Origin: an uncultured Cellvibrionales bacterium
GTDB lineage: Bacteria > Pseudomonadota > Gammaproteobacteria > Pseudomonadales > Cellvibrionaceae
Assembly: GCA_913050115.1 (NCBI GenBank)
Contig: CAJWZU010000019.1
Coordinates: 1 to 46,603 of the forward strand
Length of the DNA stretch: 46,603 nt
Direction: 5' to 3'
This document shows, piece after piece, positions 319 to 44,331 of the stretch. The notes under the pieces are model-generated. The model saw only the letters and a list, made by a program, of their open reading frames with translations, ran no database searches and was not told where the DNA came from. Position numbers and translations under genes: made by a program. How positions within the stretch are numbered: position 1 is the stretch's first letter; each line of letters starts with the position of its first letter.

Positions 319-343
319 AAAGACAATAATGAGAGGTAGTATT

Positions 344-1817: not shown

Positions 1818-2639
1818 TTACTCAGGCGCTTTTACGGGTGGATGCGCTTGTGAGTGGTCGACTGATCTGGCTTTTGCCGGTCTCACCTTGGGCCGATATA
1901 CATGGGCCTGCGCTTCATCGTAAAGATAAGAATCATCAAACTCGTCGGTAGCCAAAACATGTCCGACTAAAATGAGTGCGGTGCGAGTGAATTTTTTCTC
2001 TCGAACCTTGGCGACGATATCTTTTAAAGTGCCAATGACTTGGTCTTGATCGGCCCAAGAAGTGCGGTAACACACGGCTACGGGGCAGTCTTTGCCGTAA
2101 TGCGGTAACAGCTCGTCGACAATTTTATGAATGCGAGTTACGCCTAGGTGAATCGCTAAGGTGGCACCGGTTGCCGCTAGTGCTGGCAGGCGCTCGCGCT
2201 CGGGAAAAGGTGTCTTGCCTTCGTAACGGGTCATAATAACGGTTTGCGATACGCCCGATAGCGTTAACTCTTTACCCAACCAGGCCGCTGAAGCCGAAGT
2301 GGCAGTTACGCCTGGAATAATTTCAAAATCGATAGCCAAGGGTTTTAGACGGCGAATTTGCTCGCCAATGGCACCGTACACCGAGGGATCGCCCGAATGC
2401 ACCCGTGCGACGTCTTTACCCTCGGTATGAGCTTGCTCAATGTGTTCGAGTATTTGATCGAGGTCGAGACTGGCGGTATCGATGATTTTTTCTGCGGTGT
2501 CTTCAACATCGGCTAGAATTTCACGCGGTACTAGTGATCCAGCGTAGAGAATAACCGGGCAGCGGTTAATTATTTTTTGCGCTTTAATGGTAATCAGTTC
2601 GGGGTCGCCAGGGCCGGCGCCAACAAAATATACGGTCAT
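1818..2639 (-). CDS. cobM: Precorrin-4 C11-methyltransferase
   Basis: A SAM-dependent corrin methyltransferase (CobM/CbiF family) of 273 residues that methylates C11 of the ring-contracted macrocycle. It begins with the typical YFVGAGPGDPELITIKA segment (residues 4-20), the SAM-binding GxGxGDxxL motif of the tetrapyrrole methylase superfamily. It also carries HSGDPSVYGAIGEQ, the second conserved loop. The C-terminus extends about 20 charged residues past the usual end. It is the last gene of the cluster, 155 bases after cobJ, a wider gap than most in the operon, and a terminator follows. Whether the natural substrate carries cobalt depends on when the metal is inserted, so the CobM/CbiF naming is open. 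Confidence 0.93.
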   Translation of the reverse strand: MTVYFVGAGPGDPELITIKAQKIINRCPVILYAGSLVPREILADVEDTAEKIIDTASLDLDQILEHIEQAHTEGKDVARVHSGDPSVYGAIGEQIRRLKPLAIDFEIIPGVTATSASAAWLGKELTLSGVSQTVIMTRYEGKTPFPERERLPALAATGATLAIHLGVTRIHKIVDELLPHYGKDCPVAVCYRTSWADQDQVIGTLKDIVAKVREKKFTRTALILVGHVLATDEFDDSYLYDEAQAHVYRPKVRPAKARSVDHSQAHPPVKAPE

Positions 2640-2794
2640 GTTATGTCATCCAATGGTTCAATATTTTATACATTTATACTAATAATTTTTGGCTACACAT
2701 GGCTTCTGCTAACCAGTATCGCCTTTATTCTTGGTGACCAAGGCCGCCAAAATTGCAGGCCTTCGAGCGAAGCCAGCGCCGAATTAAAAGTGCA

Positions 2795-3571
2795 TTAGAG
2801 CTTTTTTGAATACCCGCGCGGGGTATACACCCACTCTTTTTGGCCATTGGCGATATGACGCGACTCGCTGTTGCCGACAGAAACTAAGGTAAACATATCC
2901 ACGTCTTTAGCATCGAGCTCGGCTAAGGTAATCACGGTAATCGATTCATCGGCGCGAGTAAGTTGACGACCGAGCAGTACCGGTGTTTCAGGCGGGCGGT
3001 ACTGGAGTAAAATATCGCGAGCATGATTAATTTGCCAGTCGCGCTTTTTTGATTTTGGATTATAAAAAGAGACTACAAAGTCACCCATACCGCAGGCGTG
3101 TAAACGTTTTTCGATGGTCTCCCAGGGGGTGAGCAAATCTGATAGCGAAATGGTACAGAAATCGTGCCCGAGCATAGCGCCGATACGACTGGCACCGGCC
3201 TGCATAGCTGACACACCAGGGACGACTTCAATCTCGACAGCCAGCCACTGGGGCGAGTTTTCTTTGCCCTGCAGCTGTAGATCCAATAGTTCGAACACTA
3301 GCGTGGCCATGGCGTAGATACCGATATCGCCACTGGAGATTAGTGCTGTGGTCTTGCCACTAGCGGCTAAGTCGAGCGCTAACCGGGCACGACCAATTTC
3401 TTCTCCGAGGGGTAAATCATGATGTGTTTTACCGTCGCACACCTCGCCGAGTAAGTCTAAGTAAAGCCCATAGGCCACCAGATCAGTGGCGGCTTCGACT
3501 GCCGCACGAGCGCGGGGGGTGACCAGATCGGCGGCACCGGGGCCAGAACTGACTAAATAAAGTGTTGTCAT
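2795..3571 (-). CDS. cobJ: Precorrin-3B C17-methyltransferase
   Basis: A 258-residue CobJ/CbiH family enzyme that methylates C17 and drives ring contraction. The N-terminus shows YLVSSGPGAADLVTPRA, and the SAM-loop ISSGDIGIYAMATLVFELL is clear. EVVPGVSAMQAGASRIGAMLGHDF and the FYNPKSKKRDWQ segment are also characteristic. The length equals that of single-domain CobJ/CbiH, so no extra reductase or precorrin-8 domain is fused. It starts 22 bases after cbiG. The 155-base gap to cobM contains no supported ORF. Confidence 0.93.
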   Translation of the reverse strand: MTTLYLVSSGPGAADLVTPRARAAVEAATDLVAYGLYLDLLGEVCDGKTHHDLPLGEEIGRARLALDLAASGKTTALISSGDIGIYAMATLVFELLDLQLQGKENSPQWLAVEIEVVPGVSAMQAGASRIGAMLGHDFCTISLSDLLTPWETIEKRLHACGMGDFVVSFYNPKSKKRDWQINHARDILLQYRPPETPVLLGRQLTRADESITVITLAELDAKDVDMFTLVSVGNSESRHIANGQKEWVYTPRGYSKKL

Positions 3572-3593
3572 GTAATAGTCTTCGCGTTAATTT

Positions 3594-4373
3594 TTAATGT
3601 GGTTGTTTTGGGTAGGCTCTAGCAATTGCACAGGTAGCCTTAGTATTTTTTTGTTTAGCCAACAGCAGCTCAGGCTCTTCAGCATGAGTGTCTCGCGCTG
3701 CCTTTTTTGCAAAATAAAGCGCCGCAGATTCGGCCACGCCGTAAACGCCGACCACAGAATAAACATAATCTGACTTGCTGTTGAGCAGATGCTCGACACT
3801 GCGGAGCTGCTTGGTACTGGCGGTTTGAAAGCGTATGTTGTGGGCCTTGGCCAGCGCGATTAAACCGACTTCATCGGCTTTGATATCGATACTATTAATA
3901 GAGTGAATAGTGTCGATAGTTAAACCCGACTGCTGTAGACACTGCTGCAACAATTCTTCTAAATAAGACTGGGGGCAGTCGCGTTCGCAGCCCATACCAA
4001 TACTATAAACAGGGTTCAGATAAGGGTTGGCAGTAGTAATAACCGTTTGCGAGCCGAGCAGTGTAGCGACTTGTGCGGCCCAGTTGTTGGCGCCGCCTTG
4101 GTGACCCGACAATAAAGGAATAACAAATTTTCCTGCCTCGTCGAGTACTAGTACCGCGGCATCTGTTTTTTTAGAGCCCAATACCGGCGCTAAGGTGCGC
4201 ACGGCTATGCCAGTGGCGCAGATTAACACCAAGCGTTCACCGCGCTGAAAAGCAGCCTGAACCTTTTCGGTAAAGGGCTTGGGTTTAAACCAGACAGCTG
4301 AATTGTCTAGCAGGCTTTGCAGATGTTCAGCCAATTTTAAACCGGCCTCGGTCAGCGCGACTATACGGATCAT
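3594..4373 (-). CDS. cbiG: Cobalt-precorrin-5A hydrolase, short form
   Basis: CbiG opens the delta-lactone of cobalt-precorrin-5A and releases the C20 fragment as acetaldehyde, a step of the oxygen-independent route. The N-terminal half (about 1-115) has ICATGIAVRTLAPVLGSKKTD and PLLSGHQGGANNWA, typical of the CbiG N-domain. The C-terminal half (about 120-245) matches the CbiG C-domain/CobE module (MGCERDC, ADEVGLIALA, VVGVYGVAESAAL). At 259 residues it is about 90 shorter than enterobacterial CbiG, apparently lacking the central domain. Its ATG overlaps the cobI stop (ATGA), so translation is probably coupled. Confidence 0.88.
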   Translation of the reverse strand: MIRIVALTEAGLKLAEHLQSLLDNSAVWFKPKPFTEKVQAAFQRGERLVLICATGIAVRTLAPVLGSKKTDAAVLVLDEAGKFVIPLLSGHQGGANNWAAQVATLLGSQTVITTANPYLNPVYSIGMGCERDCPQSYLEELLQQCLQQSGLTIDTIHSINSIDIKADEVGLIALAKAHNIRFQTASTKQLRSVEHLLNSKSDYVYSVVGVYGVAESAALYFAKKAARDTHAEEPELLLAKQKNTKATCAIARAYPKQPH

Positions 4374-5119
4374 AAACGTGAATCCAGACGGCGCCGCGCT
4401 TTGCTGCGAGTCACTACAAACAACGAAAAATAGGGACCTGCCTCGCCTTGCAAGAGGCTCATATCGGTTTCAACATGTTGCTGTTCGCGACCAATATACT
4501 CTAAGTAATTGGCATCATTACTGCGGCCAGTGTCTGTTAGCGCCTGCAGAATTCGCTGACGCGAGCGCCCCGCTTTCATGATAACCACTGAATCGTGCGC
4601 CGTTAAAGTCTCACGCAACTGTTGCTCGGAGTGACGGCCACTGACCACAGCAAAGGATTCTTTGAGCATAGTCAAAGGAATTTTTAACGCGGCGCTAGCG
4701 GCGTGTACCGAGGAAATACCCGGCACTACCTGACAGCTAAATTCATCTTCAAGACGCTCTAGCAGATAGGCGAATGAGCCGAAAAATAGCGGGTCGCCCT
4801 CGCATAAAAATACCACCGATTTACCGGCTGTTAATGCCAATGCTATAGCCTTGGCCGCCTGATCATAGGCCTCATTGGCCGCCGAGCGATCTTCGGCCAT
4901 CGGCATAACCACAGGTATATGGCACTGGTCTTTACTGACATCTTGCAGCGCCAAAGCAGCGATTTTTTTTGCCTGAGAGTCGCCCTTTGCATTGGCAATA
5001 TAACTGATCACATCCGCCTGTTGAATAAGACGATAGGCTTTTAACGTTAACAGCTCAGGATCGCCGGGGCCGACCCCGACCCCAACAAAAATAGCCTGCG
5101 ATGATATCGTTGTATTCAC
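4370..5119 (-). CDS. cobI: Precorrin-2 C20-methyltransferase
   Basis: A 249-residue CobI/CbiL family methyltransferase acting on C20 of precorrin-2 or its cobalt form. The N-terminus FVGVGVGPGDPELLTLKA is the family signature. FLCEGDPLFFGSFAYLLERL and VVPGISSVHAASAALKIPL follow in the expected order. The start is a GTG that overlaps the cobL stop as GTGA, preceded by GAGGGA, a good ribosome-binding site. The 3' end overlaps cbiG by 4 bases. It is part of the run of closely packed cob genes. Confidence 0.93.
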   Translation of the reverse strand: MNTTISSQAIFVGVGVGPGDPELLTLKAYRLIQQADVISYIANAKGDSQAKKIAALALQDVSKDQCHIPVVMPMAEDRSAANEAYDQAAKAIALALTAGKSVVFLCEGDPLFFGSFAYLLERLEDEFSCQVVPGISSVHAASAALKIPLTMLKESFAVVSGRHSEQQLRETLTAHDSVVIMKAGRSRQRILQALTDTGRSNDANYLEYIGREQQHVETDMSLLQGEAGPYFSLFVVTRSKARRRLDSRL

Positions 5120-6441
5120 GATTGTCCCTCAACCTGCGCGGTTTTATTAAATGGCTTGTTAAACTGAAAAAGACTCACCGGCAAATTCGGCCGATACAGT
5201 AATTGCCCGGCCAATTCGCCGCCACGACTGACCGCCACTTGCAAAGTTTTCCGTTCGGCGCAGTCCTGTAAATTGGCATAAAATTGCTGCAAAATCATTT
5301 TAGTATTTTCAGTCACAGCACTGGCCACCAACACCCCGCCAGCTGGCAACTGCTGCCAGCATAAATTGAGCAGGCTCGGCAGTTCGCCATCGCTGCCACC
5401 GATAAAAATTTTATTGGCGGCAGGGATTGCCGCCAAAGCCGCCGGTGCACGAGCGTTAATTGCGGTGACATTATTGACCACGCCAAAACGCTCGCAATTG
5501 GCTTGCATGCACGCAAACCGCTCGCGGTGATGTTCTATGGCAAACACCTGCGACTTAGGCGCCCAGTAGCCCCATTCAACCGCAACACTGCCACAGCCCG
5601 CGCCAATATCCCAGCCGATGTCAGATGGGCCCGGCTGCAACAACGACAAAATAGTTAGGCGCACTTCACGTTTGGTGAGCAGGCCTTTGCCGGACTCGCC
5701 GTCGGTAATGAAATCGGTGTCGGGGATACCGGGAAAGCGCGGCAGGTAACAACCGGCGCCCATCACGGTAATAACCGTTACCTGCAATGAGTCAAAATGT
5801 GGGGCGTTGGTGGAGTCTGTATCGAGCAATTCGGCGACTGAAAATTCTCGCACCTTTTGCTCGGCATAGCCCATTTTTTCACAGACCCAGAGGCGCGATT
5901 CAGGAAATCCGGCGTGTTGGCATTCTTGCGCCAGTTTTTGCGGTTGGCTGTTTTTATCGGTCAACAGTACCAGCGTTCGGCCCGCCTGCAACTGGCGGCG
6001 AATAGTGACTTGTGCGCGGCCGTGCAAGCTGATCACATCGACATCCTGCAGCGACAACCCCAGTGCATGACAGGCGGCTTGAATACTGGAAACGGCCGGA
6101 TAAAAATGCAGTGCTTGGCGGCTAAAATTTTGGCTAAACCAGCGCCCTATACCAAAGTAAAGGGGGTCGCCAGAGGCGAGAATAGCCACTGAGCTGACGT
6201 TTGGCTGGGCGCCAATTTTTTCAATCAGCGCCGGTAACTGCGACAATTTTGGCAGCGGATACTGTTGCTGCTCGGGAGTTAATGCCGCGGCGAGCGTTTG
6301 CAACTGCCGCTCGGAACCTATGACCGCACCAGAGCGCTGCAATGCCGCTAGTGCCGGGGTATCTAGCGGCGCCGCAGCTGCCACGCCTAAACCAATAATA
6401 TGAATATTGACCGCAGAGGTTATCAACTTGGAAGCACTCAT
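5116..6441 (-). CDS. cobL: Precorrin-6Y C5,15-methyltransferase (decarboxylating)
   Basis: A fused CbiE-CbiT enzyme that methylates C5 and C15 and decarboxylates the C12 acetate side chain. The N-terminal part (about 10-210) is the CbiE tetrapyrrole methylase, with HIIGLGVAAAA and ILASGDPLYFGIGRW. The C-terminal part (about 240-430) is the CbiT class I methyltransferase with DIGAGCGSVAVEWG and KIFIGGSDGELP. A frame extends to a GTG at 6450. The ATG at 6441 is preferred because it overlaps the cobH stop as TAATG, giving 441 residues. It overlaps cobI by 4 bases at the other end. Confidence 0.93.
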   Translation of the reverse strand: MSASKLITSAVNIHIIGLGVAAAAPLDTPALAALQRSGAVIGSERQLQTLAAALTPEQQQYPLPKLSQLPALIEKIGAQPNVSSVAILASGDPLYFGIGRWFSQNFSRQALHFYPAVSSIQAACHALGLSLQDVDVISLHGRAQVTIRRQLQAGRTLVLLTDKNSQPQKLAQECQHAGFPESRLWVCEKMGYAEQKVREFSVAELLDTDSTNAPHFDSLQVTVITVMGAGCYLPRFPGIPDTDFITDGESGKGLLTKREVRLTILSLLQPGPSDIGWDIGAGCGSVAVEWGYWAPKSQVFAIEHHRERFACMQANCERFGVVNNVTAINARAPAALAAIPAANKIFIGGSDGELPSLLNLCWQQLPAGGVLVASAVTENTKMILQQFYANLQDCAERKTLQVAVSRGGELAGQLLYRPNLPVSLFQFNKPFNKTAQVEGQS

Positions 6442-7106
6442 TAGTACCACTCGTCTGTGTTGCAGCGCAGCAGCGCATTACAGGCCGACGCTGTAACGGC
6501 ACTACCGCCTTGGTTACCGAGTAGAGTAATGCATTCTATACCCAGCTCTTGATGCACATCCCACAGTGCTTGTTTTGACTCGGCTGCACCGACAAACCCG
6601 ACGGGCATGGCGATGATCAGGGCCGGTAGCCCTACATTTGAGCCGAAACCAGAGTCGCGGCCTTGTGCAATCATTTCGAGCAACCGAAAGAGTGCCGTGG
6701 GAGCATTGCCGATCATCACGACACTGCCCGCCAACTGCGGTTGCCAATAATCCAGCGCGGCCATAGTGCGAGTTTCGCCGCGTGATTTTGCCAGCGCGGG
6801 CACATCAATATGATTTAAAAAACACAATGGCTCCACCTCGACCATGCGTTTGGTGATGCCCTGCTTAACCATTTCTACGTCGCAAAGAATAGCGCCGCCA
6901 GCTGCCAGAGCCTTGCGGCCAGCCGCACAGGCGTTATCACTAAAGCGCACCTGCCCGGCTATTTCGGGCATACCAACGCTGTGGACAATACGCATCACCA
7001 CTTGCTGTTGTGCTCGGCTGAGACCAGACAGATCGGTAACCTGACGAATGCGGCGAAAACTTTCACTTTCGATGCCCTGGGGGTCAATGATGTAATCAAA
7101 AACCAT
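6441..7106 (-). CDS. cobH: Precorrin-8X methylmutase
   Basis: CobH/CbiC moves the methyl group from C11 to C12 to form hydrogenobyrinic or cobyrinic acid. The 221-residue product has the family segments MRIVHSVGMPEIAG (with the active-site His), AAGGAILCDVEMVKQGI, IGNAPTALFRLLEMI and MPVGFVGAAESK. It lies 150 bases after cobK, one of the wider gaps of the cluster. That gap holds a 29-codon ORF (7130-7219) without a good ribosome-binding site. The 3' end overlaps the cobL start. Confidence 0.95.
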   Translation of the reverse strand: MVFDYIIDPQGIESESFRRIRQVTDLSGLSRAQQQVVMRIVHSVGMPEIAGQVRFSDNACAAGRKALAAGGAILCDVEMVKQGITKRMVEVEPLCFLNHIDVPALAKSRGETRTMAALDYWQPQLAGSVVMIGNAPTALFRLLEMIAQGRDSGFGSNVGLPALIIAMPVGFVGAAESKQALWDVHQELGIECITLLGNQGGSAVTASACNALLRCNTDEWY

Positions 7107-7256
7107 AATAAGACCTTTGTCTAATTGTTCTATTGCCTTGTGGCGGCGTTGACACCCTGCTTAGTAAGTAATTTGTCATCCATGCTCGGCCTATTTGCGC
7201 GGGCTTTTGCCTTAGCCATGCGCAAAAATTGTATTCCTGCAATGGTCTCATAATAT

Positions 7257-8039
7257 TTATTGCCCTAGGTTCAGCTGAGTGCTAAAAAATTGTTGCACCT
7301 GCTGCTGGCAAGTTTCGGTGTCGGTAAATACCTTATCTGCCGAACCCGGTTCGGGCCGGCGCAACATAAACACTGCCACGCCCAATTCGCGCGCTGCGGT
7401 TAGTTTTGCCGCAGTTGAATCGCCACCACTGTTTTTAGTGACTAGCGCATCAATCTTGCCGCGCCGCATAAAGTCTATTTCAGCGGCCAACGCAAACGGA
7501 CCTATCGCTTTATGCCAGTGCATATTGGCACCAAGTTGATGTTTTGGGGCAACCGCTGTGCGCAGCCACAGCTGTTGATTTGAGCAGGCACTGCGTTGTT
7601 CAAAAGCCTGCAGCGCCACGGCCGGCAACTGCCCTGCGGTTAAAAATACCGAGCGTTTATGGACGAGCGCCGGCAGTAGGTCATGCCAGTTATTAAACTC
7701 AGACCATTGGTCATCACTCTGCGGTTGCCAGGCCGGGCGCTGAAAACGCCAGCAAGGAATACCCCATTCACGACTGGCCGCGGCCGCGGTGGCGCTCATG
7801 GTTGCAGCATAGGGATGGGTTATATCCAGCAGCAGACGAATACCCTTGTCTCGCAGGTAGTTATGCAGGCCACCAAACTGACGAAAACCACCCACAACCA
7901 CTTGGCAGGGCATATCGGGCACTCGCACTAAACCGGCTATAGAGTAGATAATATCCACTCCCATTTGCTGCAGTGGTGCATAGAGCGCATCGACTGCACG
8001 CCGAGCATCGAGAGTGCCACCTAAAATGAGCAGCGTCAC
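7257..8039 (-). CDS. cobK: Precorrin-6A reductase
   Basis: CobK/CbiJ reduces precorrin-6A with NAD(P)H. The protein of 260 residues starts [17 protein letters not shown], a nucleotide-binding motif (GGTxxAR), and contains [14 protein letters not shown] and [14 protein letters not shown], both typical of the family. The start is a GTG overlapping the cbiD stop as GTGA, which implies coupled translation. A 150-base gap separates it from cobH. Confidence 0.92.
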
Positions 8040-9154
8040 AGTGACTCTCCCGGGCTGTTATCTATGGCACCCGCTCGGCCGACAAATACGCCCTGACGAT
8101 CGATGGCTAAGACTTCGATTTGGACACTATCAGGCACCACAGAACGGGCCTTAAGGAGAGCTTTTTGACACACCACACTGGCCAAATCCAGCCCTTGCTG
8201 ACGGCATAATTTTAATACTTGTATGCTGGTGTTGGCGGTAACGACGGCCTGTAATAATTCGGGCCCAGCGCCCAGACCTTTTGCCAGCCCGGCCAGAAAT
8301 TCAAAGTTGATACTCGAGGCCCGACTGTGCAAGTCGAGATTGCCGTCGGCCAGTTTGCACATTTTGCCAAAACCGCCGCAGATGCTGAGCTTGGCAATGG
8401 GCTTGCGCTTTAAGTACTTGAGCACCGCGCCGGCAAAATCGCCCATTTCTATGAGCGCCATTTCGGGCAACTGGTACTCGCGGGTTATCGCCGACTCGCT
8501 GCTGCTGCCAGTAGCCGCGGCGATGTGTTCTAAGCCATTAGCCTTGGCGACGTCGATGCCTTGGTGAATTGAAGCAACATAAGCGGCACAGGAGAATGGC
8601 CGCACTATACCGGTAGTCCCTAAAATGGATAAGCCGCCGAGAATACCCAGACGCGAATTCATGGTTTTTAACGCCAACTGTTCGCCCTTCTCCACCCCCA
8701 CTTCAACCTCGAAGCCACCGCGGTAATGATTCTCCTGCGCCAACTGCTGTAAATGTTCTGTCATCATCTGCCGTGGCACGGGGTTAATCGCCGCCTCACC
8801 CACCGCCAACACCAGACCGTCGCGGGTCACTGTGCCGACACCGGCGCCAGCGGTAAAACGTATCCCGGTTTCGGGCCGCAACTGCAGGCGCACAAATACT
8901 CGCGCGCCGTGGGTAACATCGGGGTCGTCACCGGCATCTTTAATGGTGCTAGTGGTGACGCTGTTGTGATCGCGAAGGGTGTTAACAATCGTCAGCTCGA
9001 CCATTTTTCCGCGCGGCAGTTTTATCGAGACCAGAGTAATGTGCTGATCTTGCAGCAGCAATGTTGCTGCGGCCACGCAGCAGGCGGTGGCGCAGCTGCC
9101 GGTAGTCAGCCCGCTGCGCAGTGGTGATTTGCCTTCATTGCTCTCGGGCCACAC
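8036..9154 (-). CDS. cbiD: Cobalt-precorrin-5B C1-methyltransferase
   Basis: CbiD adds the C1 methyl group in the oxygen-independent pathway and in hybrid pathways such as that of pseudomonads. The 372-residue protein begins with [19 protein letters not shown], the hallmark of the family. It also has [26 protein letters not shown] and [12 protein letters not shown]. The start is a GTG, supported by GAGGG 7 bases upstream. It follows the NiCo transporter by 28 bases and overlaps cobK by 4 bases. Confidence 0.94.
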
Positions 9155-9182
9155 GGGCTATCCCTCAACTTATCCGTTAAAT

Positions 9183-9857
9183 CTACAGTGCTTGCACTAG
9201 CCAGTAACTGCCAATAACAATGGAGGTTGCGGCAATTAAGCGCCGACTGTAACAAAACAATTGTTGATAGCGCTGCTGCAGTGTTTTTTGCATAAAACCA
9301 AAACCAAGGCCAAACAACAACATAGACAGCATGACACCTACCGAAAATATCACTAAGTACGCCAGCGCCACACTCAGCTGACCTTGCCCCACCGCTGGCA
9401 CTAAGGCCAGCGCTGGGGCGCTGCCAGCTAAACCGTGCAGCACGCCAACCAGCACTGGGGTATGTTTTGCATTATTTGCATGTTCATCATCTTGGCCTTG
9501 CGCCAAATGCGTGTGCACCAGCTCGCCGTGGCAATGCTCTACCAAGCGAATTTTTTCCTGTCGAAATTGCCAAAAACAAAACAGCCCCAGCGCAATCAGC
9601 AGCACACCGACACTCATTTCAGCCGCGCGCTGCAGTGCCTGCGGCAGCGCCCACCCCAAACTGAACAGCAGCGCGCCACTGAGCAGTAATACACCGCCGT
9701 GGCCCAGCGCCCAGTGCGCGCTAAAACGCAAAGTGCGCGCCAAACCCGGACGCTGATTACTCAGATTGGACACGGCCATAACATGGTCGGCATCTAGGGC
9801 ATGCATTAAACCCAGACTAAAACCCAGTGCTAACAATGGAACTATTTCAAGCGACAT
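9183..9857 (-). CDS. Nickel/cobalt transporter family membrane protein
   Basis: A 224-residue polytopic membrane protein, inferred to import cobalt for the corrin ring. It has about six hydrophobic segments. Metal-site motifs include HALDADHVMAVSN (near residue 20), HWALGHGG and GVLHGLAGSAPAL, as in the HupN/NixA/UreH-like superfamily. The central hydrophilic loop is histidine-rich (HCHGELVHTHLAQGQDDEHA). An in-frame GTG lies 6 bases upstream. The ATG at 9857 is chosen because TAGGG sits 6 bases before it. The substrate is inferred from its place between cobB and cbiD; nickel is possible by family. Confidence 0.78.
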   Translation of the reverse strand: MSLEIVPLLALGFSLGLMHALDADHVMAVSNLSNQRPGLARTLRFSAHWALGHGGVLLLSGALLFSLGWALPQALQRAAEMSVGVLLIALGLFCFWQFRQEKIRLVEHCHGELVHTHLAQGQDDEHANNAKHTPVLVGVLHGLAGSAPALALVPAVGQGQLSVALAYLVIFSVGVMLSMLLFGLGFGFMQKTLQQRYQQLFCYSRRLIAATSIVIGSYWLVQAL

Positions 9858-9937
9858 AGACACCCTACAGCAGATTATCGACGGTTAGATTTTGCATTAA
9901 ACCCAGAGCAAAACCGAGAATTAATAGTGCATAAATG

Positions 9938-11287
9938 TTAATGGTTGAGTGTACGTTTTTCCTTGCCTGCGCCGAAGATCTGCGCCACAGCGCCAGGGTT
10001 TGACGGGAAAAATAAATGTAAATAACTGGCGGTTAAACCTCCAACGCGAAAAATGGCCTCGCCCGGGGCCGGATGATGCTGACGGCGGCCGTGAGCCAAC
10101 GGCTCTGGGGTGTCGCCACTGCGCGAGCGGTGATGAGCGTGGGCGCGAATGTCTCCCTCGGGCAGCACCGCCGTTTGCATGCCCTGACAACCGCGTTTGC
10201 CACGCATGGCCCCATGACCGTCGAGCAACCCCAGCATGGTGTGCTGGCATTCATCCAAATCTGTGAGCGTTTGCAGGCTGTAGAGAAAGCCTCCGCACTC
10301 AGCCAGAATAGGTTTGCCAGTGCGGTAAAAACGTTGAATTTGACGGTGTAAATCGGTGTTATCAGCAAGGGTTGCTGCGTGTAATTCAGGGTAACCGCCC
10401 GGCAGCCAGAGCGCGTCAACTTCGGGCAGTATGGCATCATGCAGGGGCGAGAAAAATATCACCTGCGCCCCCAGTTTACGCAATAGACGCAAATTGGCGT
10501 CGTAAATAAAACTAAAAGCGGAGTCCCGAGCGATGCCAATAGTAACACCCTGAAGACTGGGTTCGATGGCGGGAACCGGCGCGGCCGTAAAAGTCACCGG
10601 CGTTAGTTGAGTAATTGCCGCCAACAAACCCGCCTCTTCAAGCCAGTCGGCGCCGGCGGCAAAACGCAGTTCCAACTCATCACGCACCTCTTCAGCCTGC
10701 ACCAAGCCTAGGTGGCGCTCGGGTAAAGCTACCGTCTCTGAGCGTTTTAAGGTGGCCAGTAAAGCCAGTGACGGGGGCAGCGCATTGCGAATTAATTCGG
10801 CGTGGCGCTCGGTGCCGCAGTTGTTAGCGATAAGGCCAAACACATTAATATCGCTGCGATAATTAGCCAGACCGGTTGCCACCGCGGCGGCGGTTTGCGC
10901 CATGCCTTTTACATCCATGACAATGGCCATAGGAATACCGAAGCGCGCGGCCAAATCAGCACTTGAAGGATCGCCATCGAACATGCCCATGGCCCCCTCA
11001 ATCAAAATCAGATCGCACTCGGTGGCGGCCCAATAAAGCATCTGCTGACAGTAGGCCTCACCGGCCATCCACAAGTCCAGTTGCTCCACCGGCGCGTTTG
11101 AGGCCTGAGCCAGAATTTGCGGGTCGAGGTAATCGGGGCCAGTCTTGAACACTCGCACCTTTTTGCCCTGCCGCGTGAGCAGGCGTGCCAGAGCCGCGGT
11201 AATAGTGGTTTTGCCCTGCCCCGAGGCGGGGGCAGTTAAAAATAGTGCCGGACACAGAGCTACTGCTTGCTCGCCATCGGCCCTCAA
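9938..11287 (-). CDS. cobB: Cobyrinic acid a,c-diamide synthase
   Basis: An ATP- and glutamine-dependent amidase (CobB/CbiA) that amidates side chains a and c. The N-terminal dethiobiotin-synthetase-like domain has the P-loop APASGQGKTT near residue 20 and the segment VFKTGPDYLDPQILA. The C-terminal class I glutamine amidotransferase domain has LWLPGGYPELHA and the nucleophile Cys in LAECGGFLY. The family end GGLTASYLHLFFPSNP is intact. The start appears to be a TTG overlapping the cobO stop (TTGA), because no in-frame ATG or GTG lies close by; this is unusual and uncertain. The RGHxFHxS motif near the end reads RAHAHHRS here. Confidence 0.92.
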   Translation of the reverse strand: MRADGEQAVALCPALFLTAPASGQGKTTITAALARLLTRQGKKVRVFKTGPDYLDPQILAQASNAPVEQLDLWMAGEAYCQQMLYWAATECDLILIEGAMGMFDGDPSSADLAARFGIPMAIVMDVKGMAQTAAAVATGLANYRSDINVFGLIANNCGTERHAELIRNALPPSLALLATLKRSETVALPERHLGLVQAEEVRDELELRFAAGADWLEEAGLLAAITQLTPVTFTAAPVPAIEPSLQGVTIGIARDSAFSFIYDANLRLLRKLGAQVIFFSPLHDAILPEVDALWLPGGYPELHAATLADNTDLHRQIQRFYRTGKPILAECGGFLYSLQTLTDLDECQHTMLGLLDGHGAMRGKRGCQGMQTAVLPEGDIRAHAHHRSRSGDTPEPLAHGRRQHHPAPGEAIFRVGGLTASYLHLFFPSNPGAVAQIFGAGKEKRTLNH

Positions 11288-11904
11288 AATTCGATCCCGG
11301 GCTGGGCCTTAACACCTAAGCGAAAAGCGTGTCGTTCGTCTTGCACCACAGAAATAGTATCGGCGATGTCCTGCAGTGGCAGGGCCATAGTGCGACCGGT
11401 AATGATCACATTTTGCATTTTAGGGCGGTTTTTCAACGCCTCGATTACCGGCTCGACATCGAGATAGCCGTACTTGAACATGTAGCTCATCTCGTCGAAC
11501 ACCAGTATCTGGTAGCGGTCGTCTCGCAGCAGTTTCTCCGCCGCCGCCCACGCCTGTTGCGCGGCCTCAATATCGCGCTCTTTACTTTGGGTTTCCCAAG
11601 TAAAACCGTGGCCCATTACTTTCCAGTCGATTAGGGGGTGATCGCGAAAAAACTTGTACTCGCCGGTCTCCATGCGCCCCTTGCTAAACTGAATTACGCC
11701 GCAGCGCTGGCCGTGACCGGCGCTGCGCGCCATAGTGCCAAAGGCAGAGCTACTCTTGCCCTTGCCATTGCCCTTAAGCAGAATCAAGACGCCACGTTCC
11801 TCAGTGGCCTTGGCAATTTTTTTGTCCATTACGACTTTGCGCGCGGCCATGCGAGCTTGGTGGCTACTGGCTTTTGAGTCGTGCAGTGTCGAGTCGTCAG
11901 TCAT
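11284..11904 (-). CDS. cobO: Corrinoid adenosyltransferase
   Basis: The CobO/BtuR/CobA-type ATP:cob(I)alamin adenosyltransferase puts the upper adenosyl ligand on the corrinoid. The 206-residue product has the P-loop GNGKGKSS (45-52), the segment GVIQFSKGRMETGEY and the conserved VFDEMSYMFKYGYL. The C-terminal KAQPGIEF is typical. ATG at 11904 is preceded by TAGGAAAC, a good ribosome-binding site formed right at the end of the upstream gene. It overlaps cobB by 4 bases. Confidence 0.95.
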   Translation of the reverse strand: MTDDSTLHDSKASSHQARMAARKVVMDKKIAKATEERGVLILLKGNGKGKSSSAFGTMARSAGHGQRCGVIQFSKGRMETGEYKFFRDHPLIDWKVMGHGFTWETQSKERDIEAAQQAWAAAEKLLRDDRYQILVFDEMSYMFKYGYLDVEPVIEALKNRPKMQNVIITGRTMALPLQDIADTISVVQDERHAFRLGVKAQPGIEF

Positions 11905-11912
11905 AATGTTTC

Positions 11913-13667
11913 CTATGCCGGCAACGGCAGATATTGCGCACCAAGAGCCGCGGCAATGGCTTGGCCTTTACCGCGCTTAATACTGGAAGATTCGATATCC
12001 ACCAGTACACAATCGCCCACCTCGGGCAGCTGTTCCAGTGGCGCGGTGGTGCGGCCATCGGTAATGAGGTAGGTGCGAGTAAGGAGTTCTGGACTCTGAC
12101 GCAGCAACTTGGCGCGAGTGTCCCGCGCCTGCTGCAACACTTGCCGTAAAGGCGTGCCGCCGGCGGCGGGGATGCTGTCTAACAACTGCCGCAGAGCCTT
12201 GGGCGCGCGCACCTGCGGCAGCAGCGTTTCGACCTTGCCATTGCCAAAGCCGAGCAACAGCAATTGCTCTCGGCTGATGTAGGCCCGTTCAGCAATGGCC
12301 AGTACGGCAGCCTTGGCGCGACCAAATAAACTGTTTTTAAGCGTTGAGGCCGAGGTGTCGAGCAAAATTAAATGCAGCGCCGGCTGGGCGGTTTTTTGTC
12401 GCCAAAAACTCAAACTCGATGGTGGCCACTGACCGCGATTTTTAACCAGAGTCTTAAACCAATTGGGCCTGCGACTGTAACCATCCGCTCGCTTGCCCGC
12501 AGAGGCTGAGGCTGACTGCCCGGCGCCCTTAGCCGCAACCTCATCCGCTCGATGCTGACGAACAGGTGTACTCGGCAGCAGAGGTTTACAGGCTAATTCA
12601 AGTGCATCAGCCGTTACCTGCTGCTGCGGTTTCATACGGCCCCAATCACCCGAGGTCGGTGCATTGCTGTTGCTATCGCGCTCGGGCGGCCGCTGAAAAT
12701 TCGACGCAGGCGGTGGTGTCGACGGCGGCGCTGCCGGTGGTGGATTTTGCGGCGCAGGTTTGCGTCTGTGGCTAAGCACTAACTCTGCCACCATCGACAG
12801 ATCTGCAGCGATCACACTGTCGCGACCGCACCACGCTGCGTGGGCCATGGCTGCTCGGCACCAGACAATATCAGCGCGCAAGCCGTCGACATGAGCAGCC
12901 GTGCAGCGTTCGGCGATAGCGCGGCGCCACTCGTCCGCACAGATGACTTGCGGCAGGCGCGCTTGGGCTCGCTCGATTGATTGTTGTAAATGCAGCTGCT
13001 CGTCGATATAGCGGTCACAAAAAACCTTGGCATCGCCATCGAACTGTTCGCGCAGGCGCACTATGTCAATGCGTTCGTCTAGGCTATATTGATTGTCCAG
13101 CTCTACCGCCAAACCAAAACGGTCCTGCAGCTGTGGCCGCAATTCGCCCTCATCGGGGTTCATGGTGCCCAACAACAAAAATCGCGAGCTGTGACTGTGA
13201 CTGATGCCATCGCGCTCCACTCGGTTGACGCCACTAGCGGCCACATCCAGCAATAAATCTACCAGCGTATCGGATAATAAATTAACTTCATCGACATAGA
13301 GCACGCCGGTGTCGGCCTTGGCCAACAAACCGGGATTAAAACTAACTTGACTGTCGCTGAGAACTTTTTGTAAATCCAGCGTCCCGGTCAGCATCTCCTC
13401 GCCAGTACCCAGCGGTAATGTAATAAATGGGTGGCTCTGACTATCGCATCGCAGCGGCAGAATGTCGGCCAAACTGCGTGCCAGTGTCGACTTGGCCGCG
13501 CCTCTCGGGCCACTCACCAACACCCCGCCAATACTAGGGCTAATAGCCGCGAGAATAAGTGCTAACTTAAAGGGCACCTGTCCCGCAACGGCAGCAAAGG
13601 GATAGTTTGGCGCTAAAGTGGGGTCAGACGAGGCGCTAGGCACTGTTGGTATCGCTATGGATGGCAC
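11913..13667 (-). CDS. ChlI/ChlD-like fused chelatase ATPase with VWA domain
   Basis: A 584-residue fusion of a BchI-like AAA+ motor (about 20-300), a proline-rich low-complexity linker (about 310-370) and a C-terminal von Willebrand A domain (about 430-580). Walker A is GPRGAAKST (53-61) and Walker B GVLYVDEVNLL (121-131). The metal-ion-dependent adhesion site begins at D437 (DTSAS). By family it would be the small subunit or motor of a Mg- or Co-chelatase working with a CobN/BchH-type large subunit, but no such gene is in this window. Start is a GTG inside the end of cbtA (32-base overlap); another GTG lies 24 bases on, and neither has a clear ribosome-binding site. Confidence 0.85.
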   Translation of the reverse strand: MPSIAIPTVPSASSDPTLAPNYPFAAVAGQVPFKLALILAAISPSIGGVLVSGPRGAAKSTLARSLADILPLRCDSQSHPFITLPLGTGEEMLTGTLDLQKVLSDSQVSFNPGLLAKADTGVLYVDEVNLLSDTLVDLLLDVAASGVNRVERDGISHSHSSRFLLLGTMNPDEGELRPQLQDRFGLAVELDNQYSLDERIDIVRLREQFDGDAKVFCDRYIDEQLHLQQSIERAQARLPQVICADEWRRAIAERCTAAHVDGLRADIVWCRAAMAHAAWCGRDSVIAADLSMVAELVLSHRRKPAPQNPPPAAPPSTPPPASNFQRPPERDSNSNAPTSGDWGRMKPQQQVTADALELACKPLLPSTPVRQHRADEVAAKGAGQSASASAGKRADGYSRRPNWFKTLVKNRGQWPPSSLSFWRQKTAQPALHLILLDTSASTLKNSLFGRAKAAVLAIAERAYISREQLLLLGFGNGKVETLLPQVRAPKALRQLLDSIPAAGGTPLRQVLQQARDTRAKLLRQSPELLTRTYLITDGRTTAPLEQLPEVGDCVLVDIESSSIKRGKGQAIAAALGAQYLPLPA

Positions 13668-14427
13668 TGTTGCGGTTAGCCTTATTTAAGTCCGCGGGTT
13701 TTACTATCCAGCGCTGTAAACACCACACGCTTGCCGGCCCCAACGCCAACCAAAAGAGTAAGTTACTAAGACCGCTGGCAACAATAAACTCTTGGTGCAA
13801 TGCCATTAGGGCTGCTACGGCCTGCGGATCGGCATGTGAAAACTCGGGCCCGCCAGCATGCGGTGCGCCAATAATAAAGGGCAGCGCCAACAACAGCGGA
13901 CCAATAAGTTTGTACTTTACCGGCGCAAACGCTAACAGCGCCAACCCAGCAATGCCTGTTACCACAGCCAGCAACCACCAGATTTGACGATGCTCAATAG
14001 CGGCGGCTTCAACACCTGGAATTTCCGGCGGCAAGCCCAGCGCTGGCATCAGGAAAAACACTCCAAAACCGGCCAGCCCCCAGAGTAGGCCTCGCAACAG
14101 GCTGAGTTGGGTTAGCCGCTGTAATTGCAGCTGACTCATAATGGCCAGCAACAGGGCGGCAAAACCGATAGCGGCCAGTACATTGGCGACAAAAGAATAA
14201 CCGCCGCGCTCAAAGCCGTCTGCAGGTGCCCAAGCTTCGGCATCATGACTGTGAGCGTGGCTGTGATCGTGACTATGGCTGTGGGCAACCTCGGGCGCTG
14301 CTTTTTCTTCATAGGCTTCAGCGGCAAAAATAATCGGGTTAACCGCCACTATTTGCAGCAGGGTTAACAGCGAGCCGGCCAGCAAGCCGAGCAATAGCGA
14401 GGTCAAAATAATATTACGAAAAATCAT
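13636..14427 (-). CDS. cbtA: CbtA family cobalt transporter subunit
   Basis: A 263-residue membrane protein with about six hydrophobic segments. It matches CbtA, the larger partner of CbtB in cobalt uptake next to cobalamin genes. After the first membrane segment a periplasmic or cytoplasmic loop carries a run of histidines (HSHSHDHSHAHSHD, about residues 49-62), probably for metal capture. The C-terminal GAPHAGGPEFSHADP and FWLALG segments also fit. cbtB lies about 206 bases upstream, a wide gap for such a pair, and chlID overlaps its 3' end. Function is inferred from family and riboswitch context. Confidence 0.87.
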   Translation of the reverse strand: MIFRNIILTSLLLGLLAGSLLTLLQIVAVNPIIFAAEAYEEKAAPEVAHSHSHDHSHAHSHDAEAWAPADGFERGGYSFVANVLAAIGFAALLLAIMSQLQLQRLTQLSLLRGLLWGLAGFGVFFLMPALGLPPEIPGVEAAAIEHRQIWWLLAVVTGIAGLALLAFAPVKYKLIGPLLLALPFIIGAPHAGGPEFSHADPQAVAALMALHQEFIVASGLSNLLFWLALGPASVWCLQRWIVKPADLNKANRNSAIHSDTNSA

Positions 14428-41494: not shown

Positions 41495-41531
41495 AAAAAA
41501 ACCCGCACCTCCAAAAGAGGCGCGGGTTTTT
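41495..41531. terminator. Intrinsic terminator after the LPMO gene
   Basis: CCCGCACCTC (41502-41511) pairs with GAGGCGCGGG (41517-41526) with one mismatch and a 5-base loop. A-rich sequence is at 41495-41501 and T at 41527-41531. On the minus strand it ends the LPMO transcript, about 20 bases after the stop. It resembles the hairpin at 46427-46453. Confidence 0.9.
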
Positions 41532-41550: not shown

Positions 41551-44331
41551 CTAGTGCACGAGCATCCAACCCGAAGGTTTAGATGGCATAACCAACACAC
41601 TCTGTTGATTACCAAAGTTATCACTGATGGCCTGTTTAACATCGCCATTAGCCGGCTTATGCCAAAGGATGTCGGTACGACCATCGCCATTAAAGTCGGC
41701 CAGCTGCTGAGTCCATGCAGAGAATTTATCCGCTAAGTTCTCAACACGATCCTGACCACCTGTTGGGCCACTGATAGCAACTTTAACTGTACCTGTCGAG
41801 GCTCGGCGCCACAAAATGTCGTGGCGACCATCGCCATTAAGATCGGCTAGGTCAGCAGCCCAAGCATTAAACTTGGCGAAGTGAGTCACAGAAGAGCTCT
41901 GCTTACCGTCTGCACCACTTAGGCCAACTTTAACAGTGCCATCATCGCCCTTGCGCCAGAAGATATCGTCACGTCCGTCGCCATCGAAGTCAGCAACTTG
42001 AACATCCCACGCTGTGAAACGCTTAAATGGAACGGCATTTACCACCGACTGCTGGGTGCCCTGGGTATTAGTGAAGACAATTTTTGACGAACCGTCGGTG
42101 CCGCGACGCCATAACATATCGTCACCACCGTCACCGTTAAAGTCACCGACGAACACTTCCCAAGCGGCACCCTTGTCGAAGAAAGACTCGAGGCGGGCCT
42201 GATCACCATTGGCATCGCTGATGCCTATAACAACAGTACCTACTGATGGCTTGCGCCATAAGATGTCGTCACGACCATCGGCATTAAAGTCACCGATATG
42301 GGTCTCCCAAGCACTGCCTTTAGCAGCCATATTATGGACGGCACCTTGATTACCGTTAGCATTGCTAATAGCAACTTTAACGGCGCCGGTCATACTGTCA
42401 CGCCAAAGAGTATCCACCGCACCATCGCCATTGAAATCACCCAACTGGGCGGCCCAATCACTCGCCTTATTGTTTAGGCTCTCAGTACGATCAACAGCAC
42501 CCATGCTATTAGTTATATCAATTTCTGCACTGCCGTTAGTATTGCGCCAGAAAATATCGGCAGTACCATCGCCATTGAAGTCGTTATTAACTGCTGAAGA
42601 ACCACTAGAGCTCGAAGAAGAGCTACTAGAACTGCTGCTCGAAGAAGAACTACTGGAACTGCTGCTCGAAGAAGAGCTAGACGATGAACCATCGTTAACT
42701 TCAGTGTAAGTAACACCAATCGCTGCAGCACAATTAGATGCCGCAAACGCAGGCGCTACTCCATAGTTGCTAGCACCGCGCACACAGAATGTTCCTTTTT
42801 TATTGGCCGGACCAAACCAGCCTAAAGTAGGCGTTGCACCAGACCAAGTTTTGTTCCAGCCACAGAAGTGATAGGTGCCAGCTACATCGCCATTTTCGGT
42901 GCCATTAGGGGCATATCTTGGTGTGGTAAATATCTGTTCAGCGGATGTAATCATGTCCCAATGAGCATTGTCTAATTCGTCCACCGTTGGCATGCGCCAG
43001 TCGTCATAACCGTCCATCGATAAGCTTTCGCAACCGGCTTTAGTTTCAGGCCAGCCTTGTCCAGAAAATTGAAGATCCTTAGTCCACATAACACCGTCAC
43101 TGCCTTCAGCATGACTACCGACTACGACAAAGGTACCAGGTTCAATACTGCCAGAAGATGAGCTGGAGCTGCTGCTAGAAGTACTACCAGAACTAGACGA
43201 GCTGCTAGAGCTAGAAGTACTACCAGAACTAGACGAGCTGCTAGAGCTAGAACCGCCGATAACTTCACACGCTTCTACAAACTCCCAATCACTTGCATTC
43301 ATGGCAGGTTGTTGGGTAGTCCACCACTTGGCCTCATAAAGATTGCCACCATTTTGCATCTTGTCGCCGCTACTGGCGTTACCCGAATTTGCCCAATTTG
43401 GGTACTCAGGGTATGCATCACAGGTGTTACCACCACCAGAGCTGCTAGAGCTGCTCGATGAACCGAATATACATGCGCCCTGATTTATCCATGGGTCATC
43501 TTTGCCATGGTTTTCTTCAGGGTTGGTGGTGGTCCAGTAATTAGCCGTGTAGCGAACACCGTTAAACTGAACCTCATTGCCTTGTGTAGTCGGGAAAGTC
43601 GATTCCCACTCACTCAAACTCTGACAGGTATCAAAAACACCGCCGGAAGAACTGCTTGAAGAAGACGAGCTGTCAGAGCTCGGTTCCTTATCAAAATCAA
43701 CATCGACACAGGCATAAAATGCCTCGGGGCTATCTTCAACGCCGCGCTGCCATACAGAATACACAATGTGCTTACCGGTGCGCTCGGGCAAAAAAACGGT
43801 ATGTGTGGCAGCTGTCTCGCGAAGAGACTCGCCTGAGTCGTGAATAAAATCAAGGTCGAGCCAATTAAGTGGCTGAGTAAAGTCATGACCGTCGCGAGTT
43901 ATGTAATAACGGTAATACTGAGTAACATGGGGCGCCGTATTGATCCAAGTAAAATCGGTATCGCCACCAGGTTTTACCCCTGCTGCCACCCAGTCGGTAC
44001 GCGCTAAATCGAGCCCAGCGTACTTACCTTCCTGACCGCCACTGCAGAGCGTACCATCGGGCACTACCGCCAGATGATCGTCAGAGGCACCGCCCTGATT
44101 AACACCATTGATGTCGTAGAACCCGGATGTGCCACTTAAGGCAACCGCGGCTCGACATGCTGTGGATGTCATATTTTCAACGCCCTCAGACTCACATTGA
44201 GCAATACGGCTCAAGGGTGACTTAATGGTGCCATGGGCTGTTGCTACCTGCGGTACAGCTGCTAAAGATGCAGCTACACCACATGCCAAAGCAATTGCTT
44301 TGGTACTTACCACTTTACTGGAATTTTTCAT
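41551..44331 (-). CDS. Multimodular AA10 lytic polysaccharide monooxygenase with poly-Ser linkers and FG-GAP repeats
   Basis: A 926-residue secreted copper enzyme, inferred to cleave chitin or cellulose oxidatively. After the signal peptide (1-32, ATA|HG) the mature N-terminal His33 and His135 (TAPHVTQYY) form the copper histidine brace. The AA10 domain runs to about 215. Poly-serine linkers join it to two CBM5/12-type modules (about 232-292 and 303-362, with NYWTT and AKWWTT). A DUF1566-like domain follows (about 400-540, GYDDWRMPTVDEL). After a longer poly-Ser stretch come about seven FG-GAP/VCBS repeats (from about 580; DFNGDGxxDIxWR, calcium-binding style). There is no cell-wall anchor. 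The poly-Ser linker style is typical of Cellvibrionaceae. Confidence 0.88.
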   Translation of the reverse strand: MKNSSKVVSTKAIALACGVAASLAAVPQVATAHGTIKSPLSRIAQCESEGVENMTSTACRAAVALSGTSGFYDINGVNQGGASDDHLAVVPDGTLCSGGQEGKYAGLDLARTDWVAAGVKPGGDTDFTWINTAPHVTQYYRYYITRDGHDFTQPLNWLDLDFIHDSGESLRETAATHTVFLPERTGKHIVYSVWQRGVEDSPEAFYACVDVDFDKEPSSDSSSSSSSSSGGVFDTCQSLSEWESTFPTTQGNEVQFNGVRYTANYWTTTNPEENHGKDDPWINQGACIFGSSSSSSSSGGGNTCDAYPEYPNWANSGNASSGDKMQNGGNLYEAKWWTTQQPAMNASDWEFVEACEVIGGSSSSSSSSSGSTSSSSSSSSSGSTSSSSSSSSSGSIEPGTFVVVGSHAEGSDGVMWTKDLQFSGQGWPETKAGCESLSMDGYDDWRMPTVDELDNAHWDMITSAEQIFTTPRYAPNGTENGDVAGTYHFCGWNKTWSGATPTLGWFGPANKKGTFCVRGASNYGVAPAFAASNCAAAIGVTYTEVNDGSSSSSSSSSSSSSSSSSSSSSSSSSSSSGSSAVNNDFNGDGTADIFWRNTNGSAEIDITNSMGAVDRTESLNNKASDWAAQLGDFNGDGAVDTLWRDSMTGAVKVAISNANGNQGAVHNMAAKGSAWETHIGDFNADGRDDILWRKPSVGTVVIGISDANGDQARLESFFDKGAAWEVFVGDFNGDGGDDMLWRRGTDGSSKIVFTNTQGTQQSVVNAVPFKRFTAWDVQVADFDGDGRDDIFWRKGDDGTVKVGLSGADGKQSSSVTHFAKFNAWAADLADLNGDGRHDILWRRASTGTVKVAISGPTGGQDRVENLADKFSAWTQQLADFNGDGRTDILWHKPANGDVKQAISDNFGNQQSVLVMPSKPSGWMLVH
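42597..42690 (-). repeat. Long poly-serine coding tract in the LPMO gene
   Basis: About 30 serine codons in near-tandem units of about 27-30 bases (AGC/AGT/TCT/TCG mixed) encode the linker before the FG-GAP repeats. Mixed codons keep the repeat from being a simple trinucleotide run. Confidence 0.85.
43153..43252 (-). repeat. 36-bp serine-linker repeats
   Basis: Two 36-base units starting at 43174 and 43210 encode a serine tract ending in Gly-Ser-Thr. A further partial unit lies on the left. They form the linker between the second CBM and the DUF1566-like domain. Confidence 0.85.

Follow-up and report, generated by a model that had tools for sequence, protein, structure and literature searches.

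The AA10 lytic polysaccharide monooxygenase (LPMO) encoded in the window, that is, the whole stretch of 46,603 nucleotides analysed, ends in a predicted propeller module of about 343 aa that recurs in at least 23 proteins of the same genome, with one copy per ORF. The copies are old, under purifying selection, and have been relocated between protein positions. Then, what could so widely shared a propeller do for so many proteins? The reading we prefer, to which we give an even chance, is that the module would be a lectin-like shared handle, whose loop sites bind glycan and keep many secreted enzymes on one surface.

The features of the gene are collected in Table 1. The sequence-only reading had proposed an AA10 domain, two CBMs, a DUF1566-like domain and FG-GAP repeats joined by poly-Ser linkers, and this order is borne out by Pfam and by sequence matches to the PDB. 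The LPMO_10 match covers residues 33-211 (E 1.2e-44, 153.7 bits versus a cut-off of 23), and the best-scoring solved AA10 domains are those of CjLPMO10A (5fjq, E 5.7e-56) and CbpD (E 1.4e-48 and 7.6e-48). His33, which had been named as the mature N-terminus, keeps that place, since ATA precedes it and its counterpart in the alignment is residue 1 of mature CjLPMO10A, and the second copper-brace histidine, His135, is also present; cleavage in front of His33 is presumed from this alignment. The first CBM matches the solved CjCBM5 chain 6z40 (E 3.3e-9) and gives a weak match to the CBM_5_12 model at residues 249-271, under the Pfam cut-off, and the second is the best stretch for CBM_5_12_2 (30.2 bits versus a cut-off of 27). 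By these matches the LPMO has two modules of CBM5/12 type. According to the available text of PMC10154629 and PMC8449059, CjLPMO10A is C1-oxidising on chitin and has the order AA10-CBM5-CBM73. Since the best solved matches include this enzyme, chitin oxidation is the likely activity, and the LPMO is probably a secreted AA10 of the CjLPMO10A/CbpD kind. Like CjLPMO10A of Cellvibrio japonicus, it has an N-terminal His and two small chitin-type CBMs C-terminal to the catalytic domain; however, the DUF1566-like domain and the propeller are extra in the LPMO, and in the second CBM Cys304 and Cys355 stand where CBM73, in the part of PMC8449059 available, has an additional disulfide. The adjoining genes appear housekeeping-like on reading of the ORF lists, and the propeller copy of the LPMO lies well within its contig, away from the ends.

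Table 1. Features of the LPMO gene, and proteins of the same genome in which Pfam names a domain on an ORF bearing the propeller module (partners; C and a number denote a contig).
Feature	Position or contig	Strand	Basis
Whole gene, secreted multidomain AA10 LPMO, 926 aa	41551..44331	-	ORF and Pfam
Putative signal peptide, residues 1-32, ATA end before His33	44236..44331	-	Sequence; alignment of His33 to 5fjq residue 1
AA10 LPMO domain, residues 33-213, copper-brace His33 and His135	43693..44235	-	
Poly-Ser linker 1 (Ser/Gly run), residues 221-231	43639..43671	-	
CBM5-type module, residues 234-290	43462..43632	-	CjCBM5 6z40 match
Poly-Ser linker 2 (Ser/Gly run), residues 290-301	43429..43464	-	
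Second CBM5/12-type module, residues 301-356	43264..43431	-	Pfam
Poly-Ser linker 3 (longer Ser/Gly run), residues 359-395	43147..43257	-	
DUF1566/Lcl_C-like domain, residues 396-547	42691..43146	-	Pfam, below cut-off
Poly-Ser linker 4 (Ser/Gly run), residues 548-579	42595..42690	-	
Predicted seven-bladed FG-GAP/VCBS propeller module, residues 584-926	41554..42582	-	
GC-rich hairpin between A and T runs, probable terminator	41496..41531		Read by eye
AA10 + module	LPMO, 41551-44331	-	
GH18 + module	C10, C70, C15, C93		
GH19 + PHB-type esterase + module	C65		
GH44 / DUF1800 + module	C35		
GH5 + module	C38		
CE2 + module	C12		
GDSL + module	C2		
Polysaccharide deacetylase + module	C94		
BD-FAE esterase + module	C87		
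Beta-lactamase-like + module, RicinB match under cut-off	C92		
YceI + module	C75		
NPCBM/PKD + module	C78		

The domain between the CBMs and the propeller is likely homologous to DUF1566/Lcl_C at a level below the curated threshold, since the Lcl_C match (residues 412-456, E 1.7e-5) scores 25.5 bits versus a cut-off of 34.9. It had no match among PDB sequences up to E 10, and its single-sequence AlphaFold2 model (pLDDT 33) is useless. Among 144 genomes of the family the domain was found only in the genome studied here, at two places, the second of which, on contig C75, is 81% identical to that of the LPMO and scores 29.2 bits for Lcl_C, also below 34.9.

Seven FG-GAP repeats had been counted in the LPMO, and the recount agrees: Dx[ND]xDG blocks begin at residues 584, 632, 681, 730, 781, 830 and 879, and FG-GAP_3 matches six stretches (Pfam, E 9e-29). 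Because the seven blocks are spaced by 48-51 residues and the module recurs across the genome, these repeats, as judged from sequence, are real and not a chance pattern. That they could form a propeller, as had been suggested, is supported by the AlphaFold2 prediction, for which the input was the module of the LPMO with 28 outside homologues; the model (pLDDT 86.7, pTM 0.86) contains 28 strands, taken as seven blades of four strands each. The seven predicted blades with Dx[ND]xDG loops, together with the FG-GAP_3 match, are those of a VCBS/FG-GAP propeller. Ranked by E-value, the Foldseek matches begin with the Streptomyces chain 9oee (TM 0.60), followed by the GlcNAc lectins AAL2, PVL and PAL (TM 0.77-0.80). 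In VIA-align, the GlcNAc-binding mushroom lectins PVL, AAL2 and PAL (2bwr, 4tqm, 5mb4) come first, with Z 29.6-30.5, rmsd 2.5-2.6 over 328-329 residues and 19-20% identity, and after them CV39L (Z 24.4), Photorhabdus lectins (20.8-22.7), 9oee (22.2) and unrelated propellers (about 19). The likeness of the predicted fold to lectins proves no function. The chains 9oee and 8w20, named 'secreted esterase' of Streptomyces, resemble the module of the LPMO in having a VCBS-type propeller on esterase-named chains; 9oee belongs to the entry titled 'S. griseus TUA bound UmbA4 complexes', and by sequence it matches the module better than any other solved structure; the two are 22-23% identical. The propellers of integrins and KICSTOR are in the match lists as well, and a 'hemolysin-related protein' chain, 6mlt, is among the listed solved structures. 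Related propellers of integrins and KICSTOR serve in protein-protein contacts. A second ligand for the propeller, whether glycan or protein, is plausible on the basis of the model, and the LPMO may be surface- or complex-associated, as had also been suggested.

The genome comprises 2.72 Mb in 100 contigs, with completeness 97.85 and contamination 0.29, and 43 matches to the module were found in it. Fifteen copies, including that of the LPMO, are full; they are 60-85% identical pairwise, with a mean column identity of 77% (alignment A1), and beyond them the copy on C22 is an outlier at 42-47%. Six further copies run off contig ends with the N-terminal part and eight with the C-terminal part, so that the number is 23 if each N-part pairs with a C-part and otherwise up to 29, plus a partial copy on C87. 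It should be noted that the genome is fragmented and possibly a metagenome assembly; the copy number and several partners are therefore uncertain, because many contigs stop inside the module. The module proteins are presumably all secreted, the leader being often out of view in contig-cut copies. Divergent propellers are present on C22 and C58, and remnants of the module on C25, C35 (16575) and C52. The G+C content of the fetched module stretches is 0.41-0.50, mostly under the 0.503 of the window. The idea of a propeller unique to the LPMO was rejected on its genome-wide recurrence, and a module common to at least 23 proteins is not specific to an oxidase.

The architecture had been called uncommon, and this holds for the combination: AA10 with FG-GAP is rare in the family, but the propeller itself is not LPMO-specific. 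LPMO_10 is present in 90 of the 144 family genomes. An AA10 joined to a propeller needs about 550 aa, so only LPMO_10 ORFs of at least 551 aa were checked, and the tested Dx[ND]xDG pattern is absent from all 20 besides the LPMO among the matches listed, whereas the LPMO has seven such blocks. In the open-licence PMC literature, we found no description of FG-GAP joined to a lytic polysaccharide monooxygenase, of a VCBS/integrin-like propeller on a glycoside hydrolase or a chitinase/CBM protein, of Cellvibrionaceae FG-GAP proteins, or of a carbohydrate-binding family matching the propeller module; as far as their available parts go, PMC3161981 (FG-GAP, chitinase, carbohydrate-binding) and PMC3192720 (FG-GAP, glycoside hydrolase, marine) are seemingly not about it.

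With alignment A1 as a profile, two of the 144 family genomes, the one studied here included, have a match of E 1e-30 or lower; the other (G127) has a single place (E 2.6e-36) within a 2954-aa ORF, and a close copy of the module was found in none of the 143 other genomes. In a class sample of 369 genomes, five match at 1e-25 or better, again including our own, whose best copy reaches 4.5e-196 and the others no better than 3.3e-41. Among the matches listed for named genomes, from which our own may be absent, the best identity is 38% and the hosts are from many phyla. Ten such outside ORFs were scanned, and three of them (L079, L087 and L088) encode Xanthomonadaceae proteases that are reprolysin-like and have an FG-GAP tail. 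They rank with the closest outside sequences (best-segment identity 35-37%) and, like the LPMO, consist of an enzyme followed by a C-terminal propeller; unlike it, they are proteases and lack Lys/Arg-x3-Trp at the tested spacing. By sequence, then, FG-GAP-tailed enzymes are already known, with these proteases as examples. Several FG-GAP ORFs are likewise held by two other genomes (G230 and G495), and five records of a plasmid collection have propellers, all below 34% identity. Among the genomes searched, no second one with sharing of the module at this scale was found.

The partners named in Table 1 are mostly enzymes, and several module proteins are without any catalytic domain named by Pfam. 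Eight partner regions were compared with NCBIfam, none reaching a curated cut-off; against the PDB, the partner region on C97 had no convincing match (best E 0.1) and that of the 1054-aa ORF on C35 had none. Four of the 10 GH18 places are in ORFs with the module and six are in ORFs without it, of which one extends past its contig end; nor does the module occur in the second AA10 gene, on C70. LPMOs and chitinases are usually considered to reach their targets through small CBMs, and here CBM_5_12_2 was found in 18 ORFs (21 places, three below cut-off), 12 with the propeller module and six without, one of the six at a contig edge (C49). CBM_5_12_2 modules are expected, from their family, to bind chitin. 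Since 12 of the 18 ORFs thus hold both, it is more likely that the propeller holds something other than chitin, or adds avidity.

The site of the module varies, being right after the leader in some genes, at the protein end in others and central on C12, C75 and C92. Comparison of eight genes with an N-terminal module showed that most pairs have a common leader and a common short 5' segment. Identity is intermediate at 60-120 bp before the module and near background farther out; the C35 pair is an exception, its similarity extending further upstream. A tree built from 16 copies has one supported clade, of six members (100/98), in which N-terminal, central and C-terminal modules occur together, and most branches outside it are weak. 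On the branches with good support, at least two changes are required for each position label, and no label is more clustered than expected from shuffling (305, 53 and 500 of 500 as low for N-terminal, mid and C-terminal, respectively). Poly-Ser runs adjoin many copies, and the module was probably relocated via poly-Ser coding stretches. Dockerins and C-terminal sorting domains bring enzymes into cell-bound complexes without glycan binding, and the main rival to the lectin-like handle is such a docking or sorting module, recognised by a surface or secretion-route protein so that a cell-bound enzyme complex forms. The fusion of the module at either end to functionally diverse proteins, its place next to CBMs of chitin type in 12 of the 18 CBM_5_12_2 ORFs, the listed integrin and KICSTOR propellers, and the leader, short 5' stretch and module that form one cassette in several genes would all suit docking. 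However, sorting tags usually keep one fixed end, whereas the module is found N-terminal, central and C-terminal with the forced changes above, and the highest Z scores belong to lectins; we regard docking as possible, and rather doubtful.

The sugar pocket offers a closer comparison with the mushroom lectins. As far as the available text of PMC4483166 describes it, the ligand of AAL2 is non-reducing terminal GlcNAc, and its pocket is formed by Asn/Asp, a Gly pair, Trp and a His from the inter-blade segment; a GW loop contributes to the pocket in PVL and tachylectin-2 (PMC8023676). We counted residues at fixed spacing from the Trp in the 15 full copies, that is, by sequence position and not by structure superposition. 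The loop Trp is present in 90/90 cells of loops 1-6 and 13/15 of loop 7, and Lys/Arg at W-4 in 89/90 and 4/15, respectively (93/105 overall). Asn/Asp at W-8 occurs in only 30/105 cells, Gly at W-1 in 5/105, so that the Gly-Gly before Trp is mostly lacking, and His at W+5 in 0/90. Thus, the module shares with PVL, AAL2 and PAL a predicted seven-bladed VCBS-type propeller (Z about 30) and a Trp in the loop between blades, but most of their polar GlcNAc contacts are replaced by Lys/Arg at W-4, and it is fused to bacterial enzymes, at 19-20% identity to these lectins. A straightforward lectin of PVL type was therefore rejected, because the PVL/AAL2 contact side chains are mostly absent. Tachylectin-2, in the part of its description available, has a Lys three residues before Trp that is involved in GlcNAc specificity, and the W-4 Lys/Arg may resemble it, which is a lead by analogy. 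Lys/Arg with Trp at the module spacing occurs in none of 140 outside blades, a count that does not prove absence of the Trp, because many of those listed have a Trp one residue farther from the Asp motif. The same residues bear on the idea that the propeller is a classical substrate-targeting CBM, binding chitin itself and raising avidity. The closest folds bind GlcNAc, and GH18, GH19 and AA10 are among the partners; yet so are GH44, GH5 and esterases, CBM5/12-type modules are already there in the 12 of 18 ORFs, the PVL-type contacts are mostly missing, and the terminal GlcNAc that AAL2 binds (PMC4483166, in its available part) would be scarce on crystalline chitin. Consequently, we consider this idea quite improbable.

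The age of the copies could be estimated from their divergence. Ks is near saturation for most copy pairs (0.61-1.50 for pairs with the copy of the LPMO), and Ka/Ks has a median of 0.16 (range 0.079-0.336; 105 pairs of the 15 full copies). Since Ks is near 1 and Ka/Ks is low, the copies are old and have been kept by selection; a recent burst of duplication was rejected on the same Ks. A passive stable cap or spacer, spread via poly-Ser repeat recombination with little function of its own, would fit the poly-Ser runs bordering many copies and the remnants on C25, C35 and C52, but is very improbable given this Ka/Ks at Ks near 1 and a loop Trp and Lys/Arg that vary little or not at all between copies; purifying selection that acts only on the fold might account for part of this.

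Under the preferred lectin-like handle, the LPMO would be anchored on chitin by its two CBM5/12-type modules, and long poly-Ser linkers would join it to the seven-bladed VCBS propeller, probably stabilised by Ca2+. The propeller would serve as a genome-wide mix-and-match accessory module, in which the repeated loop sites around Trp, with Lys/Arg at W-4, bind glycan with high avidity, and so the shared handle would hold the enzymes on one surface, be it a substrate rich in GlcNAc or a matrix polysaccharide of the bacterium itself. A similar arrangement is described, in the available part of PMC10102183, for Bap1 and RbmC of Vibrio cholerae, in which a shared propeller ties secreted proteins to matrix polysaccharide. 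By analogy, both systems have a propeller common to secreted proteins and a polysaccharide tether, which for the module is proposed; Bap1 and RbmC, however, are two adhesins with eight blades, whereas the module has seven predicted blades in at least 23 proteins. Neither was among the 50 matches listed for Foldseek or VIA-align, which excludes nothing. Against the lectin-like handle stand the partners without an obvious polysaccharide role (YceI, DUF1800, beta-lactamase-like), the six of ten GH18 places and the second AA10 without the module, the rank of 9oee above the lectins by Foldseek E-value, the mostly absent PVL/AAL2 contacts, the weaker motif of loop 7 and the protein contacts of related propellers.

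In a wider sense, the lectin-like propeller, specific to this genome, common to much of its polysaccharide-degrading secretome and swapped through poly-Ser stretches, might gather oxidases, hydrolases and esterases on one glycan of the matrix or surface as a glycan-based counterpart of the cellulosome, which we regard as unlikely. The presence of an old propeller under purifying selection in at least 23 proteins suggests that this lineage has a shared means of localisation or of raising avidity, and, if it binds glycan, the module would be a candidate for a new carbohydrate-binding family and for a general tag for the co-localisation of enzymes.

Several module genes are clustered within positions 1-20000 of contig C35 of the same genome (fetched as stretch L061), and they are listed in the table together with the other features located here. 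The 499-aa ORF that follows the module-CBM5-DUF1800 gene is presumably its DUF1501-type partner, judging from its sequence.

Features in the window and in fetched stretches of the same genome (leader, N-terminal leader peptide)
Feature	Location	Strand
Cut module and 1054-aa ORF	L061, C35:1-20000	
1155-aa ORF, same leader type, three CBM matches, no propeller	L061, C35:1-20000	
Module-GH44 gene	L061, C35:1-20000	
Module-CBM5-DUF1800 gene, then 499-aa ORF	L061, C35:1-20000	
Module remnant, after the 499-aa ORF	L061:16569-17522 (C35)	
Second AA10 LPMO	L059:7450-8529 (C70)	+
Module protein	L063:790-3897	+
Module protein	L064:1504-3870	+
337-aa ORF	window 329-1342	+
Long ORF series	window 1818-14427	-

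The second AA10 LPMO of the genome lacks the propeller, and its gene is adjoined on C70 by a module-GH18 gene. The module proteins of L063 and L064 have N-terminal openings that are alike by eye, and their long N-terminal regions carry no Pfam name; the two proteins may represent an undescribed family of secreted enzymes. Away from the LPMO, we take the 337-aa ORF of the window to be tyrosine recombinase-like, possibly of the integron type, and the ORF series to resemble a cobalamin biosynthesis cluster.

The G+C content of the fetched module stretches (L053-L077) is 0.41-0.50, mostly lower than the 0.503 of the window. The stretches L071 (C22) and L069 (C58) encode divergent multi-FG-GAP proteins, which are devoid of long poly-Ser runs and have C-termini similar to that of the module; these proteins are candidates for its source. 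C25 (L077), C52 (L074) and C35 each carry a degenerate remnant of the module, and in one of these the reading frame is interrupted by stop codons; the remnants indicate that module copies have been lost as well as gained.
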